From Candidatus Iainarchaeum sp. (GTDB taxonomy: Archaea; Iainarchaeota; Iainarchaeia; Iainarchaeales; UBA10219): DNA of 64,000 nucleotides. The DNA lies in the NCBI GenBank assembly GCA_018304425.1, contig JAGVWE010000006.1:71281-135280 (forward strand). Reading direction: 5' to 3'. Under the pieces are notes generated by a model, which did not search any database, was not told the DNA's origin, and saw nothing but the letters and a program-made list of their open reading frames with translations. Shown piece after piece: positions 41,150-62,742 of this stretch. Numbering within the stretch: the stretch's first letter is position 1; each line of letters begins with the position of its first letter. The position numbers were made by a program, and so were the translations under genes.

Positions 41150-41425
41150 ATGAAGCAGTACGTCACGAATGTGGAGCCAGCCCTCATCAAGGAAGTCGAC
41201 AAAATCGTCAAGAAGAAACAGCATTACAGTTCCCGCAACGAGTTCATCCGGGACGCCATCCGAAGCAAGGTGAAAGAACCACGGGCCATGAAACTCCGGG
41301 AAGCGCTGAGAAAAATCAGAGAAACTGCATTGAAGCGGGGTTGGAATGGAGAGATGCCAACCAAAGCGGAACGCGAAAAAATCCTGCAAGAATTTCTGAA
41401 AGAAAAAGGTCTTTCACTCGATTAA
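41150..41425 (+). CDS. CopG/RHH-type antitoxin or repressor
   Basis: 91 aa. KQYVTNVEPALIKEVDKIVKKKQHYSSRNEFIRDAIRSKV is an RHH DNA-binding domain (archaeal NikR/CopG-like pattern, EF-IRDAIR helix), followed by a charged helical tail. Behind a palindromic operator. The last 12 nt overlap the 3' end of the PIN toxin on the other strand, so this is a convergent rather than tandem antitoxin-toxin arrangement. Confidence 0.78.
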   Translation: MKQYVTNVEPALIKEVDKIVKKKQHYSSRNEFIRDAIRSKVKEPRAMKLREALRKIRETALKRGWNGEMPTKAEREKILQEFLKEKGLSLD

Positions 41426-41851
41426 GTCCCTGGGTGCTACGACGCGAATCAAACCCGCAGCAAGCACAAAATCTTTTTTGTTGAAAGTCATCAAGGCATC
41501 GCAATGGGCTTCGATGGCAATCGCTGCATGGAGGGCATCCATGGAAGGAACGCCTTTTCCGCGAAATTCCTCGGCCAAAGAAGTGCACCGCCCAGTAGAC
41601 TCGGTAACTTCGACAGATATTTCTCGCTCTCGGAAGAAATCGAGCACTTCTTGTGCGGAGTGGTATGCAATCCGCTTGATTTCCCGAAACACGTAATCAG
41701 ACAACACTACGGTAAACCGTTCCGGGCACGCGTCAAAGAAATCCTCGACGTCTTGGTACATCAACTTGAATGGCTTGCCCATGTCGGCCTTAACGAAGGC
41801 GATGAAAATGTTGGCATCCAGGTAGACACGCTGTTTAGGGGCTGGCGACAT
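41414..41851 (-). CDS. PIN-domain toxin, convergent with RHH gene
   Basis: 145 aa from ATG 41851 (SPAPKQRVYLDANIFIAF), the natural PIN start; the GTG at 41907 would add 19 unrelated residues. Acidic sites: YLDANIFIAF, YVFREIKRI, SMDALHAAIA, and the final FNKKDFVLA. RNase-type toxin of the VapC group. Convergent with the RHH gene, with 12 nt of 3' overlap, so toxin mRNA is antisense to antitoxin mRNA at its end. Confidence 0.78.
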   Translation of the reverse strand: MSPAPKQRVYLDANIFIAFVKADMGKPFKLMYQDVEDFFDACPERFTVVLSDYVFREIKRIAYHSAQEVLDFFREREISVEVTESTGRCTSLAEEFRGKGVPSMDALHAAIAIEAHCDALMTFNKKDFVLAAGLIRVVAPRDLIE

Positions 41852-41943
41852 GCACGACCCTCCGAAGGGTTTCGGCAACGGGTGCGGTGCCAGCCATAAT
41901 AGCCACACGCCAACCAGTTTTTAGGCTTTTCGACGATTGCCGA

Positions 41944-43586: not shown

Positions 43587-44132
43587 TCACATGGGGTGGC
43601 CAACCCGGTACCGGCGCTTGCCGCTTCGCTCTGCTGCGCCGGTGGGGTCGGGTCTGCCCGTTGCCCCAGGCCACCAGCCCTTGGGCTCCAATTGCTGGAC
43701 TACCGCATCAATGACGTCTCGGTCCTCGATGCCAAGGACATTCATAAGCCTTGCTTCCACGGCACGTGCGGCGGTGCGAAGGGATTTTTTCATAGGAATA
43801 GGAAGTTCACGAACGTCAAGCCACTGGCCCAATGCATCACGGACGCGCATGAGTTCCACAATCGGTGGCATCGCTTCCTTGAGTTCCGGCAGCTCGCGTG
43901 CAACAAAGCGATAACGCGGCACCCGGTTCAATCGCACGCCAAGCGCGACTTCCATTCTGCGAACCGCTTCCCGGGCCTGTTGCAGGCGCGCAGCCCGCGC
44001 GGCCCGTAACCGGGCAACCGCCACCGGGTTCGATTTCTTTATTTTCTTGGCAAAAATCACATAGTTCTTCGGGGCCTTCACGGGCCTTGGATGATAGTCC
44101 ATGGGGTTCGGCGGTCTGGGCTTTCGCGGCAT
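43587..44132 (-). CDS. Lineage-specific basic protein, function unknown
   Basis: 181 aa, rich in Arg, Lys and Pro at both ends (PRKPRPPNPMDYHPRPVK; RSGKRRYRVGHP). The middle (ARLRAARAARLQQAREAVRRMEVALG) is strongly helical with coiled-coil character, followed by PPIVELMRVRDALGQWLDVRELPIPMKKSL. I recognise no domain. ATG 44132 follows, by 28 nt, a promoter box nearly identical to those of the two large genes at 44745 and 46477, suggesting common control. Confidence 0.6.
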   Translation of the reverse strand: MPRKPRPPNPMDYHPRPVKAPKNYVIFAKKIKKSNPVAVARLRAARAARLQQAREAVRRMEVALGVRLNRVPRYRFVARELPELKEAMPPIVELMRVRDALGQWLDVRELPIPMKKSLRTAARAVEARLMNVLGIEDRDVIDAVVQQLEPKGWWPGATGRPDPTGAAERSGKRRYRVGHPM

Positions 44133-44160: not shown

Positions 44161-44178
44161 CTATTTAACGGTTTCGGG
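44161..44178 (-). promoter_or_regulatory. Shared promoter module, copy 1
   Basis: Minus strand reads CCCGAAACCGTTAAATAG, a BRE-TATA-like box 28 nt before ATG 44132. The same string is found at 44706 and 46439. Confidence 0.6.
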
Positions 44179-44255
44179 TTCCGCCTTCCTTGCCGTTCAC
44201 TTCCATTCCTTGGCCCCCAACCTGAATTCCAGTCTTTTCCCCGGCATGCAAACCA

Positions 44256-44573
44256 CTAGCCTTGCACGTCCAGTACCCTGTACCAGCGTTCGCCGAAGGC
44301 ATCCTCCAACATGGATGCATACCCCTCCCCACAGAGGTTTTTGAGACGACGCTCCACATCCCCGTAGAGGCGCATGGCTGCCTTGGTCAATACCGTGTCC
44401 CTTTCTCCCGTATGCTGGCCAAGCCAGATAACGAGCCGCCTGGCGGCATCGCGGGCGACAAACAATTGGCGAAACGGCTCGGGTTGCGTACTGATGATAT
44501 TCACGCGCTTGCTGCGCGGAAGGCCTTTGTCCCACTTCACGGCTGGCACGGCATCGAGGGAAGACAACACGAC
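44256..44573 (-). CDS. Hypothetical small protein
   Basis: About 105 aa from GTG 44573 or TTG 44570. I recognise no family. The sequence is protein-like and helical (QLFVARDAARRLVIWLGQHTGERDTVLTKAAMRLYGDVERRLKNLCGEGYASMLEDAF), with Cys and Trp conserved-looking spots (GERWYRVLDV). The overlapping alternative frame ending at 44197 is Arg/Gly/Pro-rich and less likely. No clear promoter box. Confidence 0.5.
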   Translation of the reverse strand, partial: VVLSSLDAVPAVKWDKGLPRSKRVNIISTQPEPFRQLFVARDAARRLVIWLGQHTGERDTVLTKAAMRLYGDVERRLKNLCGEGYASMLEDAFGERWYRVLDVQG

Positions 44574-44705
44574 CGTCCCTTGAACAAACCCCGATTGTAG
44601 CGGTGTTTCCTGGATTGGCCCATGCTGCCTCGGCGCGTCATGGAAACAATTACGCTACAGGGACTTAATTAACGTTTGCAGGCCTAGGCATCAGGCAGGC
44701 AGCGA

Positions 44706-44724
44706 CCCGAAACCGTTAAATAGG
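44706..44724 (+). promoter_or_regulatory. Shared promoter module, copy 2
   Basis: CCCGAAACCGTTAAATAGG, a BRE-TATA box, 22 nt from the end of TAG to ATG 44745. The 16-nt core and spacing are identical to copy 3 at 46439. The 44574-44705 stretch upstream holds no gene that I can see. Confidence 0.65.
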
Positions 44725-44744
44725 CTGGAAGCCTTGACTATTAC

Positions 44745-46433
44745 ATGGCTTTCAGCACGCGGGGCATTCGGATGCGCAATCCGCGGACGCACCGGATGCA
44801 CTGGGTCGAGTTTGCTGGCACCGTGCCCATGAAGCAGGCACCGAGGCGCTGGATTCAGGTGCCAGAACCGAGTGCGTGGAAGCAGGAAGGCGGGAAAGAG
44901 AATGCAAGCGCGGCGTTCAAAGCATCCCACAGGGACTTGACAAAATATTATCGGGCAAAGCGGGGCGTGCACGGCCCTGGGGGCATGCCGGCGGACACGC
45001 ACCGACGCGCCACGCAATTGCTACAGTTCCTGAAAAAGTTCCCCCCCCAGCCCAGCGCCGTCGAAGTCATGGCCAACCTGGCCTTCAAGAAGGGCCTGAC
45101 CAAGAAAGCCTTGGGCCCTTGGGCCACCATGCTGCGGTGGTTCCATCAAAAAAATCCGGGCGTGGTATCGGGTTACCCGCAGTGGACGGCAGTGGCCGTG
45201 AACACGGGCACCCTGGCTAGAGTCGATGAGCTGCTGGACCGGCGGCCTGAATTGTTCGACTCCGGAAAAATCGCGGACGCCTTGTCAATCAAGCCAACCA
45301 AGACGAACATTCAAATCATCAACACGGCCGTCGCCATCCTGGATGCCATGAAATTCGTGCAACGGTGGCAGGGGGAAAACAAGGGCCGCATGCAGGTGGT
45401 GGCGTCCAGGCACCGCTTCAAGGTGCGGTCCGCCCCCTTTGACCGGTCCGTGTTCAAGGTGCTCGATGCGCTCGTGAAGGGAGCGACGACCACGGCCGAA
45501 ATAAAGGCCCAGGGAATCAAATACCCCAAGGGACCCCTCAAGCGGCTGGAAGACCACGGCTTTATCGCGGTCAGGAAAGGGAGGGCCCGGAAGTTTTCGC
45601 TCGAAGTGACAGCAGTCGGCCACGAAGCCCATTTTGGCCAAGTGAACCGAAAAAGCGGGACGATTTCGCCGGCCTTCCGGCGGTTGCTCGAAGACAAGCG
45701 GAGCCCAGGCATCCACAAACGGGCGCGGGACAAGGAAGCCCTCCGAAAGTGGGTGGAGGTGTGGGCGGCAAGGCTTGGCCCGGAAACCCCGCTTCCGCGC
45801 GTGATTGCACAAACGCTGGGAATATCACAAAAATACGTGAATTTAGTCATTTATGAGAACCGGTTTCCCTTGGTCGGTGCCGACCGCATGCCGCGCGCCC
45901 GCGCGTTTATCGCGGAGTTAAGCCGGGAAGTGCCGGGCATGGCCGAGAAATGCCAGACCATCGAAGGCGTGCTGACGAAAATGGAGGCGTTCGACCACGC
46001 CCGGCAGGCAGCGAAAGAATTCGGGAACAGGATAGCCAAGCGCTTTGGCCTCGATTTGAAAGCGCGCCCACGCCTCGAGTGGAAGGATATGGCCGTGGAA
46101 GAAATCAGGGCGTCCCGCAAACGCATCGGCGAACTGTGGAACGCGCGGCAGGAACTGGAAGAAGTGGCGAAAAGCGTGCCGAGAAAATCGCCTTCCGGCA
46201 GGCACCTCCGAAGAACGGTGCAGGCCGTGGACGCCGAACTCTGCCGGTTGACTGGTGCGGGCGACCCCAGGAGGCTGGAAAACGTACTGGTCGTCGTGGC
46301 ACCGAAGGGAACCGATTGGCACCTGTGGCTCGGCATAACCGGCTTGCCCCAACCAATTAGACGGCCCTTCAACGAGAACGAAGGCAACCGAAGGGCAGCC
46401 GCCGGGAGTAGTCGACCTTCGGCCTGGCAGTGA
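44745..46433 (+). CDS. Large unknown protein with winged-helix-like modules, paralogue 1
   Basis: 562 aa, no named domain recognised. Helical N-terminal part (TQLLQFLKKFPPQPSAVEVMANLAFKKGLTKKAL), then two helix-turn-helix-like units: KIADALSIKPTKTNIQIINTAVAILDAMKFVQRW, and FKVLDALVKGATTTAEIKAQGIKYPKGPLKRLEDHGFIAVRKGRARKFSLEVTAVG, the latter a winged-helix pattern. A further HTH-like unit is LPRVIAQTLGISQKYVNLVIY. Strongly basic, without signal peptide, so probably a cytoplasmic DNA- or RNA-binding protein. Homologous along most of its length to the next gene, with the same promoter. Confidence 0.65.
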   Translation: MAFSTRGIRMRNPRTHRMHWVEFAGTVPMKQAPRRWIQVPEPSAWKQEGGKENASAAFKASHRDLTKYYRAKRGVHGPGGMPADTHRRATQLLQFLKKFPPQPSAVEVMANLAFKKGLTKKALGPWATMLRWFHQKNPGVVSGYPQWTAVAVNTGTLARVDELLDRRPELFDSGKIADALSIKPTKTNIQIINTAVAILDAMKFVQRWQGENKGRMQVVASRHRFKVRSAPFDRSVFKVLDALVKGATTTAEIKAQGIKYPKGPLKRLEDHGFIAVRKGRARKFSLEVTAVGHEAHFGQVNRKSGTISPAFRRLLEDKRSPGIHKRARDKEALRKWVEVWAARLGPETPLPRVIAQTLGISQKYVNLVIYENRFPLVGADRMPRARAFIAELSREVPGMAEKCQTIEGVLTKMEAFDHARQAAKEFGNRIAKRFGLDLKARPRLEWKDMAVEEIRASRKRIGELWNARQELEEVAKSVPRKSPSGRHLRRTVQAVDAELCRLTGAGDPRRLENVLVVVAPKGTDWHLWLGITGLPQPIRRPFNENEGNRRAAAGSSRPSAWQ

Positions 46434-46438
46434 ATCGT

Positions 46439-46457
46439 CCGAAACCGTTAAATAGGC
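46439..46457 (+). promoter_or_regulatory. Shared promoter module, copy 3
   Basis: CCGAAACCGTTAAATAGGC, then 22 nt from the end of TAG to ATG 46477. Overlaps the 3' end of the preceding gene's flank (stop at 46433), so paralogue 2 has its own promoter. Confidence 0.65.
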
Positions 46458-46476
46458 CGAAATGGAAGGATAATAC

Positions 46477-48012
46477 ATGGCTACCTTGCGGAAGTTCATC
46501 GGCAAAGTGCCCCTCGTCAAGCGGGTGACCATCCAGACGCGGGCAGGCCCCAGGGAAATCGTGAAGCCCGCGCTCAGGCCCTGGATGCGACAGGAAAGCA
46601 CGGCCTATGCAGGCAAAAAGGAGAATGAACCCGAAGCCAATGCCCAGTATAAGAAAGACGTAGCCGAGCTGGCGCAAGAATACGCCAAGGAAGTGGACCG
46701 TTTTGCGGGACACCCGCGTTCCCGCATTGTGGACAGCGCGCGGCGCATGGCCGAGGTGCTCGAATATTTGGCGGCCTTGCCGGAAAAACCGCACGCCAAT
46801 GAAGTGCTGGCCGGCCTGGCCTTCGCCAAAGGCCTCGAAAAAGGGCGGCTACAAGAATATGCGAATAGCCTGGTGCGACTCCAGCGGTTGCGGAAAAAAC
46901 TGTTCTACGGTTCGACCATCAAGATACGGGAACTCGTGAACGCGGACATCCTGCACAAGGTCGACGTCGTGCTGAGGCGCGCCCCCAAAATCATGAATCC
47001 CGCGGAAATCGCGGAAAAGGCTGGGATTGCATCCACGAAAATCAACCGGGATGCGGTGGCAACGGCGGTGAATGTCCTCTCCACCATGAAACTGGCACAA
47101 AAACAACCCCTGTCAGCGAAAGGGAAATCGTTCCGCGTCGTGAACGCCTGGTATAGGCACCGCGTACGGTCCTCACCCGAGGAAAACACCCAATACCAGC
47201 TCATGCAGGCACTGGCCAAGGGACCCCACACGGGGGAACAATTGCAGGAAGCATTGGATTTGCGCAGCAACAGCGGTACCCAGGAGGCTTTGAACACGGC
47301 CATCTCCAGGGGGCTTGCCACGGCCTCCCGTGGCCGCAGCGGAACGCTCGCGCTGACGATAACCGAGCTTGGCAAGGAGCTCCTCGAAGAACAAGCGGGC
47401 CGGAAGCGCATCGTTCCCCGGTTGCGACGCAAATTGCTGGGGGAAAAAAACCATGGACTGACGCCGACGGAAGAATACTCCTACCAATCGCTGTTACGGT
47501 GGGCACGCGTCCAAGCGTTCAGGGCCGAAAATCCGGGATTGACGGACGCTCAAGTCGCCGAGAGAATGGGTGAAATGAAATGGTACCCGACGTTCATTAA
47601 TCGAAAAAACTGGGTGTTGCCCGTGAACGCCCAAAGCCCGGAAGCCCGAATCCGGCGGGCGCAGAAACTCTGGCACGTCATGCGGGAACGCGATCCCAAG
47701 CTGGCCCCCTTCCTGGCCCGGAAAATCGAGGCGGATGCAGCGGCCCATGGCATCCCGGTGGAAAAGGAGGTGCCGGCCAACGGGCTACAGCAACACGTCC
47801 GCAACATGGGGTTCCGGTTGCTCAGGCCAAACGAGGAGGGACTACTACTGACGAGGCCGCAGGAAGATGCCCTAGTAGCCCGTTTTACCATGGCACCGGA
47901 AATGCAAACGCTTTCCCCGGCGGGTCACGCGGCCATGCTTGAATTCCTGGAACGCGTTACTACGCTTTCCCCGGGTGCCCTGCACAGGCTACGCCAGGCA
48001 TGGAGAGTTTGA
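46477..48012 (+). CDS. Large unknown protein with winged-helix-like modules, paralogue 2
   Basis: 511 aa. Aligns by eye with the preceding gene: EVLEYLAALPEKPHANEVLAGLAFAKGLEKGRLQ; PAEIAEKAGIASTKINRDAVATAVNVLSTMKLAQ; YQLMQALAKGPHTGEQLQEALDLRSNSGTQEALNTAISRGLATASRGRSGTLALTITELG, again a winged helix; and LTDAQVAERMGEMKWYPTFI. The C-terminal 120 aa diverge. No nuclease, ATPase or membrane motif is visible. The pair probably arose by tandem duplication. Functions could include lineage-specific transcription or nucleoid proteins. Confidence 0.65.
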   Translation: MATLRKFIGKVPLVKRVTIQTRAGPREIVKPALRPWMRQESTAYAGKKENEPEANAQYKKDVAELAQEYAKEVDRFAGHPRSRIVDSARRMAEVLEYLAALPEKPHANEVLAGLAFAKGLEKGRLQEYANSLVRLQRLRKKLFYGSTIKIRELVNADILHKVDVVLRRAPKIMNPAEIAEKAGIASTKINRDAVATAVNVLSTMKLAQKQPLSAKGKSFRVVNAWYRHRVRSSPEENTQYQLMQALAKGPHTGEQLQEALDLRSNSGTQEALNTAISRGLATASRGRSGTLALTITELGKELLEEQAGRKRIVPRLRRKLLGEKNHGLTPTEEYSYQSLLRWARVQAFRAENPGLTDAQVAERMGEMKWYPTFINRKNWVLPVNAQSPEARIRRAQKLWHVMRERDPKLAPFLARKIEADAAAHGIPVEKEVPANGLQQHVRNMGFRLLRPNEEGLLLTRPQEDALVARFTMAPEMQTLSPAGHAAMLEFLERVTTLSPGALHRLRQAWRV

Positions 48013-61523: not shown

Positions 61524-61541
61524 ATGAAGCAATTGCTTCAT
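61524..61541. promoter_or_regulatory. 18-bp perfect palindrome overlapping the tnpB start
   Basis: ATGAAGCAATTGCTTCAT, whose last bases are the first bases of the ATG at 61540. It could sequester the start or bind a dimeric repressor, keeping TnpB expression low. Confidence 0.55.
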
Positions 61542-62742
61542 GTGGCTCGTCAAAACAGTCCGAGTCAAAGCCTTTGAGCCGACCAGGGTCAAAAAACAGT
61601 TCATGGCGTTGTTGCTTGAAAACAGTAGACTAATGAACGAATACCTCTCGCTGATGCAGGCCCATCAAACGACTTCCAAGCAGCACCTGCACTTGCTGAG
61701 CTATGAAAGATTAACCCAGGCACTCAAGTTGCCAGCAGCGGTTGTTCAAACCGCAAGAGACAAGGCAGTGCAAATTTATCGCTCCCACCTTGCCATGAAA
61801 AAGGATGGGCCTGATTGCAAGCTACCGTGTTTCCGTATGACGACTCCCGTCCGCCTAGACAGAAGATGCTTCAACATCATTGAAACAAAGAACAAGTTGA
61901 CTTATGTTGCCGCAATGAGCGTAAAGGGCGGGCGCGTGCATGTTCCCTTGCTTGGACAGCGTTATCAATACAGGCAACTGAGAAAAATAGTCGCAGGGGA
62001 ATTAAAACTTGGTTCGGTGGAGCTAGTGAAAAGAGGCAAGGATTTCTATTTTCATCTCGCGATAAAAAAAGAAACCCCGGACATTGACCCGGATTACAGT
62101 TATACGCCTGTAGGCGTTGACCTTGGCCTAATCAACCTTTCAACTTCCGTGATTTTGAAAGGGGGGCGGCCATGCAACATACTCTTTCAACGTGGTGGCA
62201 ACGCCCTGGAAATGCGCAAGCGGTTCGCAACTTTCCGCGCGTCCCTGTCAAGAGCCGGGAAATTCCGACGTATCAGGGAAACAACGGGAAAGGAACGGCG
62301 ATGCATGCGCGACATCAACCACAAAATAAGCAAGTCCATCCTTGCACAGGCAAACCAAACAGAAAAGCCGATAATCGTGATGGAGCGGCTTACCTACATC
62401 CGTGAAAGAATCCACAGGGGAAAAAAATTGAACGCAATGCTGCATAGTTGGGCTTTCGCTCAATTACAGGAATTCATAGCCTATAAAGCTGCCTGGGCCG
62501 GCATCCCGGTGATGTATATAAACCCAAAATACACCTCCCAGCAATGCAATAAATGCGGTTTCACGTCAAAAGCCAATAGGCTGGGGAGAAGCTTTAAGTG
62601 TGGAGACTGCGGATATGAATTAAACGCCGACTTGAATGCAGCCATCAACATTGCCAAGGCATATAAGAACTTTGCACCAGGCTATAGGTCCGGTGCATTG
62701 GGCGCACGTGACAGCGCCTTAACCCTGCAAGCAAGGGCTTGA
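61540..62742 (+). CDS. tnpB: TnpB RNA-guided nuclease (IS1341/OrfB type)
   Basis: 400 aa, normal size. RuvC catalytic residues are intact: D194 in GVDLGLINLST, E282 in IVMERL and D364 in LNADLNAA. Zinc ribbon C336-x2-C339...C354-x2-C357 (CNKCGF, CGDCGY). N-terminal wedge region with VKTVRVKAFEPTRVKKQFMALLLENSRLMNEY. TnpB enzymes cut DNA guided by an RNA from the element's right end; here that RNA would begin in the 3' part of the gene and run past 62742. Appears functional by motif. Confidence 0.93.
   Translation: MWLVKTVRVKAFEPTRVKKQFMALLLENSRLMNEYLSLMQAHQTTSKQHLHLLSYERLTQALKLPAAVVQTARDKAVQIYRSHLAMKKDGPDCKLPCFRMTTPVRLDRRCFNIIETKNKLTYVAAMSVKGGRVHVPLLGQRYQYRQLRKIVAGELKLGSVELVKRGKDFYFHLAIKKETPDIDPDYSYTPVGVDLGLINLSTSVILKGGRPCNILFQRGGNALEMRKRFATFRASLSRAGKFRRIRETTGKERRCMRDINHKISKSILAQANQTEKPIIVMERLTYIRERIHRGKKLNAMLHSWAFAQLQEFIAYKAAWAGIPVMYINPKYTSQQCNKCGFTSKANRLGRSFKCGDCGYELNADLNAAINIAKAYKNFAPGYRSGALGARDSALTLQARA

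Follow-up and report, generated by a model that had tools for sequence, protein, structure and literature searches.

Three neighboring genes in Candidatus Iainarchaeum sp. probably encode, as judged from their sequences, a few transcription regulators that are expressed together. Two of them, W1 (44745-46433, plus strand) and W2 (46477-48012, plus strand), encode multi-winged-helix proteins of 562 and 511 aa, and the third, W3 (43587-44132, minus strand), encodes a basic protein of 181 aa. All three lie downstream of the same 16-nt string, CCGAAACCGTTAAATA, in the 64,000-nt stretch of DNA that we analyzed (the window). The reading that we prefer, with belief and doubt in about equal measure, is that a rare family of DNA-binding regulators has expanded locally here, with identical promoters, most likely under negative autoregulation.

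Exact copies of CCGAAACCGTTAAATA sit ahead of all three genes, as the initial annotation had stated, at 44162-44177 on the minus strand (W3) and at 44707-44722 and 46439-46454 on the plus strand (W1 and W2, respectively). The gap from the box to the ATG is 29 nt for W3 and 22 nt for both W1 and W2. A search of the whole 1,477,149-base genome (1.48 Mb) found no fourth exact copy, and the exact string thus precedes these three genes alone rather than most genes.

The string has the makeup of an archaeal core promoter, an A-rich BRE (CGAAA, 44708-44712 at W1) closely followed by an A/T-rich TATA element (TTAAATA, 44716-44722 at W1), with the TATA center about 26 nt 5' of the ATG, a distance that matches other promoters of the same genome. 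CGAAA agrees with VRAAA, the BRE consensus of Pyrococcus (PMC5937170). Archaeal TATA and BRE elements lie at about −27 and −33 relative to the transcription start (PMC5316973). From the BRE/TATA fit and these published positions, we infer that CCGAAACCGTTAAATA is the core promoter and that the ATGs lie close to the predicted transcription starts. It is a strong, near-leaderless archaeal promoter, one or two steps removed from the generic BRE/TATA sites of the genome, and not a new kind of box; the initial annotation had taken it as the sign of a small lineage-specific regulon. We also tested whether CCGAAACCGTTAAATA could be read as a bacterial sigma-70 promoter and found no support for this.

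When up to three mismatches to CCGAAACCGTTAAATA were allowed, the window still yielded the same three sites alone (shuffle mean, 0.23), while the genome yielded 44 sites versus 4 with a reversed control, most commonly in the form nnnAAAnCnTTAAATA. This abundance, like the fit to BRE plus TATA, is consistent with a plain strong promoter that was inherited by duplication, has no dedicated regulator, and has been kept identical by TFB and TBP alone, an account that we consider possible though somewhat doubtful. Our promoter sample, ~0.43 Mb of genome stretches (about one third of the genome), contained 33 TTAAATA sites 12 to 45 nt ahead of open frames, with gap lengths most often of 22 and 23 nt. 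Since this is the modal gap of the genome, the equal spacing at W1 and W2, correctly described in the initial annotation, is generic and carries no special information; the modal spacing too is what a plain promoter would give. So is the similarity of the W1 and W2 promoters, which agree at 77% of positions over the whole 44 nt from the box through ATGGCT.

A plain promoter accounts less well for the identity of the sequence next to TATA. The BRE-proximal stretch within the W1, W2, and W3 promoters is CCGAAACCG, and the nine bases 5' of TTAAATA are identical in all three. Calculated from position frequencies in the sampled promoters, a promoter would carry exactly this 9-mer with a probability of ~1.3e-4, and two TTAAATA promoters of the genome would carry the same 9-mer with a probability of ~4e-5 per pair. 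Both values are rough because the trio contributes to the frequencies and some of the stretches overlap one another. Across the sample, about a third of the genome, agreement at 9 of 9 positions was confined to the trio, the next pairs agreeing at 8, and a perfect VRAAA at −8 was found in four promoters, three of which were those of W1, W2, and W3. The W1 and W3 promoters have 19 nt exactly in common, and W1 and W2 coding DNA contains no match longer or better than the promoter match. Three identical 9-mers would not be expected from core-promoter constraint alone between genes whose proteins have diverged by more than two changes per site (as estimated from the tree), and their identity goes far beyond generic promoter similarity, despite the 30% protein identity of W1 and W2. 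Against our preferred reading, we count that the promoter identity can largely be explained by ordinary selection on a strong core promoter and shared ancestry. A promoter simply inherited and then kept by core-promoter selection is a serious rival to autoregulation. The box did not recur ahead of 11 relatives from other genera, so an operator conserved upstream of orthologues, which would have left a phylogenetic footprint, was not seen among them.

W1 and W2 had been described as tandem paralogues over most of their length. They align with 30% identity over ~326 residues (E 6e-31), which upholds the paralogy but takes in some 60% of each protein, as the two differ in their C-terminal parts; the common core corresponds to W1 residues 29-343 (44829-45773, plus strand). 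In the family tree the two are sisters (support 80/89) on long branches, and on this sequence evidence we regard them as true paralogues. Both are rich in K and R (104 of 562 residues in W1 and 86 of 511 in W2). No Pfam, NCBIfam, or PHROG family passed for either protein, and neither matched sigma regions 2 and 4.

The AlphaFold model of whole W2 (six sequences) was of moderate confidence (pLDDT 69.5), and a model of residues 50-228 alone was better (pLDDT 89.4, pTM 0.82). In the shorter model, residues 108-179 (W2 ~157-228) were superimposed by VIA-align on the SelB winged helix 1lva (Z 10.9, rmsd 1.4, 64 aligned), and in the whole model residues 233-311 of W2 were superimposed on MarR 5h3r (Z 10.9, rmsd 1.6, 76 aligned). 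A 13-row family profile searched against PDB sequences matched BldR (3f3x) and PadR proteins at the same residues, 233-311 (E 1.2e-5). Further along, the region of one relative (G094) equivalent to W2 residues 330-377 matched HTH_23 (E 1e-7). The predicted order in W2 is thus an N-terminal helical domain (residues 50-145, 46624-46911), a winged helix (residues 147-223, 46915-47145), a MarR/PadR-type winged helix (residues 233-311, 47173-47409), and a C-terminal helix-turn-helix seen as AlphaFold helices (residues 330-377, 47464-47607), all on the plus strand. Models and fold comparison agree with the original proposal of at least two HTH or winged-helix units in each protein. Whole-model Foldseek matches to RPC62, ESCRT-II, and ScpB were weak (E above 1e-3), and we set these relationships aside. 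A short RKFIGKVP-like motif recurs at W2 residues 5-12 (46489-46512) and at the N termini of relatives, which are otherwise disordered and variable around it; it may be a docking peptide.

The proteins had also been said to match no familiar family. This holds for W1 and W2 as whole proteins, for which no Pfam or NCBIfam family exceeded its cutoff, but one domain of W2, at residues 233-311, is of the PadR/MarR superfamily by both profile and fold (Z about 10-11 across that superfamily). PadR/MarR regulators are small single-domain dimers of ~100-190 aa, with dimerization helices around one winged helix. Unlike these, chains of the W1/W2 family run to 430-600 aa and contain several HTH units; beside the one unit of PadR/MarR type there are another winged helix, a helical domain conserved in the family, and an HTH toward the C terminus.

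W3 had been listed as the product of a divergent unknown gene, but it is not unrelated to the others. With W3 as the query in its own genome, the C terminus of W1 was matched (E 1.7e-5), and W3 residues 39-178 aligned with W1 residues ~410-554 at z 12.8, a score reached by none of 1,000 shuffles. BLASTP, phmmer, and the shuffles were concordant. We call this region domain X (43599-44018, minus strand, in W3; 45972-46406, plus strand, in W1). W3 is thus homologous to the C-terminal extension of W1 and a partial relative of it, and all three proteins are related in part. No relatives of W3 turned up in the 86 remaining genomes of the phylum, and among 389 archaeal genomes domain X was present in W1 and W3 alone, plus one marginal match. 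Between the divergent promoters there is a possible fourth gene, a 104-aa open reading frame with a GTG start (44256-44570, minus strand) whose codon bias agrees with coding. By eye it resembled domain X, but the scores do not support this likeness (Smith-Waterman z 2.1 versus W3 and 0.6 versus W1). A weak match to it in another genome (G084; E 9e-4) is probably due to chance, the matched frame looking like a methyltransferase.

We looked across 87 genomes of the phylum and found the family in 11, the genome of the cluster included. Subfamily A comprises the W1/W2 pair and five single-copy relatives, and subfamily B comprises five shorter proteins. Two further full-length members occur in other archaeal families, so the family is not restricted to this lineage. 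Short profile matches elsewhere mostly span a single winged helix, and those are left out of this membership. The family is thus rare and unannotated and has variable C-terminal modules. Its gene neighborhoods differ from genome to genome and are mixed, with replication, repair, nucleotide, and cell division genes as well as TFB. One subfamily B gene (L063:8338-10462) follows a TFB gene at a distance of 74 nt, both being on one strand. A second (L067:6995-8149) comes immediately after the gene for the PolD large subunit, and a Cdc6 gene is close by.

One relative (L009:305-2227, G055:C47), on a contig of 5.3 kb, is a fusion: a single open frame carries bacterial sigma-70 regions 2 and 4 at its C-terminal end. 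Region 2 was recognized by Pfam at E 1.2e-4, just under the curated cutoff, and region 4 matched SigA chains in the PDB (E 1.3e-5). Sigma-70 factors have previously been reported in DPANN archaea (PMC8204110). Region 2 matches were found in 25 of the 87 genomes, patchily and sometimes in long frames; the fusion is the sole match in its genome, and there was none in the genome of W1, W2, and W3. Both the fusion and the TFB adjacency point to a role in transcription. They would also fit W1 and W2 as general accessory initiation factors that touch promoter DNA and the TFB/RNA polymerase machinery, with no local regulon. Foldseek placed transcription proteins with tandem winged helices, RPC62 among them, at the top, though weakly (E 6e-3). 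This we consider improbable, since presence in 11 of 87 genomes argues against a general factor and one fusion plus one neighbor pair is thin evidence. A bolder idea, and decidedly a long shot, is that these proteins form an archaeal module for binding promoters, to which some lineages have coupled a bacterial-type sigma; archaeal-style winged helices would then bring the sigma module to archaeal promoters. The fusion protein resembles the DPANN sigma-70 factors in having regions 2 and 4. W1 and W2 contain no sigma region, and on this idea the trio would represent a form of the module without sigma that controls its own BRE/TATA promoters.

The patchy distribution of the family could instead suggest replication, segregation, or mobile-element proteins whose winged helices would attach to an origin or a centromere, the cluster being a decayed integrated element. 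The plasmid centromere protein AspA (4rs8) was among the winged-helix matches (Z 10.4), and PolD, Cdc6, or FtsZ genes lie near some relatives. We think this very unlikely, because searches of viral contigs, phages, and plasmids gave no match, the composition of the cluster is ordinary, no integrase was present among the reading frames around it, and its neighbors in the window are housekeeping genes. Elsewhere in the window, a small CopG-like gene converges on a PIN-like gene and overlaps it (41150-41908, near the cluster), the two possibly forming a toxin-antitoxin-type pair, and a gene for a TnpB-like transposon protein (61540-62742) lies in a stretch of lower GC. A PADLOC search for defense systems gave no match of note.

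In the history that we favor, W1 and W2 would stem from an old duplication in which the promoter was copied as well, and W3 would have the tail domain of W1 and the same promoter. The three genes would be transcribed from identical strong BRE/TATA promoters with little or no leader; joint expression is therefore expected whenever nothing keeps TBP and TFB from binding, and co-expression of the three genes is likely. W1 and W2 are likely to bind DNA and to have a regulatory role, given their domains. An HTH protein sitting on BRE and TATA would keep TFB and TBP off, and the promoters may have stayed identical because of a need for matched expression, most likely through negative autoregulation. 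Autoregulation through the common promoter is plausible and is the reason for the promoter identity that we prefer. TFB-RF1 (PF1088) of Pyrococcus furiosus acts at the BRE, controls its own operon and one more, and activates by binding a palindrome upstream of a weak BRE (PMC5937170). The proposed role at the BRE and the proposed self-control are alike, as compared by description. Unlike the TFB-RF1 case, the BRE here is perfect and the common string is the core promoter itself, so repression suits the W1, W2, and W3 promoters better than activation.

The paralogy, the domain folds, the promoter identity, and the W1-W3 homology rest on sequence or prediction. The original observation is confirmed and its interpretation is partly supported, a regulon being what we infer from it. 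The result is an unannotated archaeal multi-winged-helix family whose C-terminal modules are swappable and include, in one case, a bacterial-type sigma factor. The fusion of sigma regions to an archaeal DNA-binding-type protein offers a concrete handle on the control of DPANN sigma factors, and the cluster is a clean test case for promoter-level autoregulation in an uncultured phylum.
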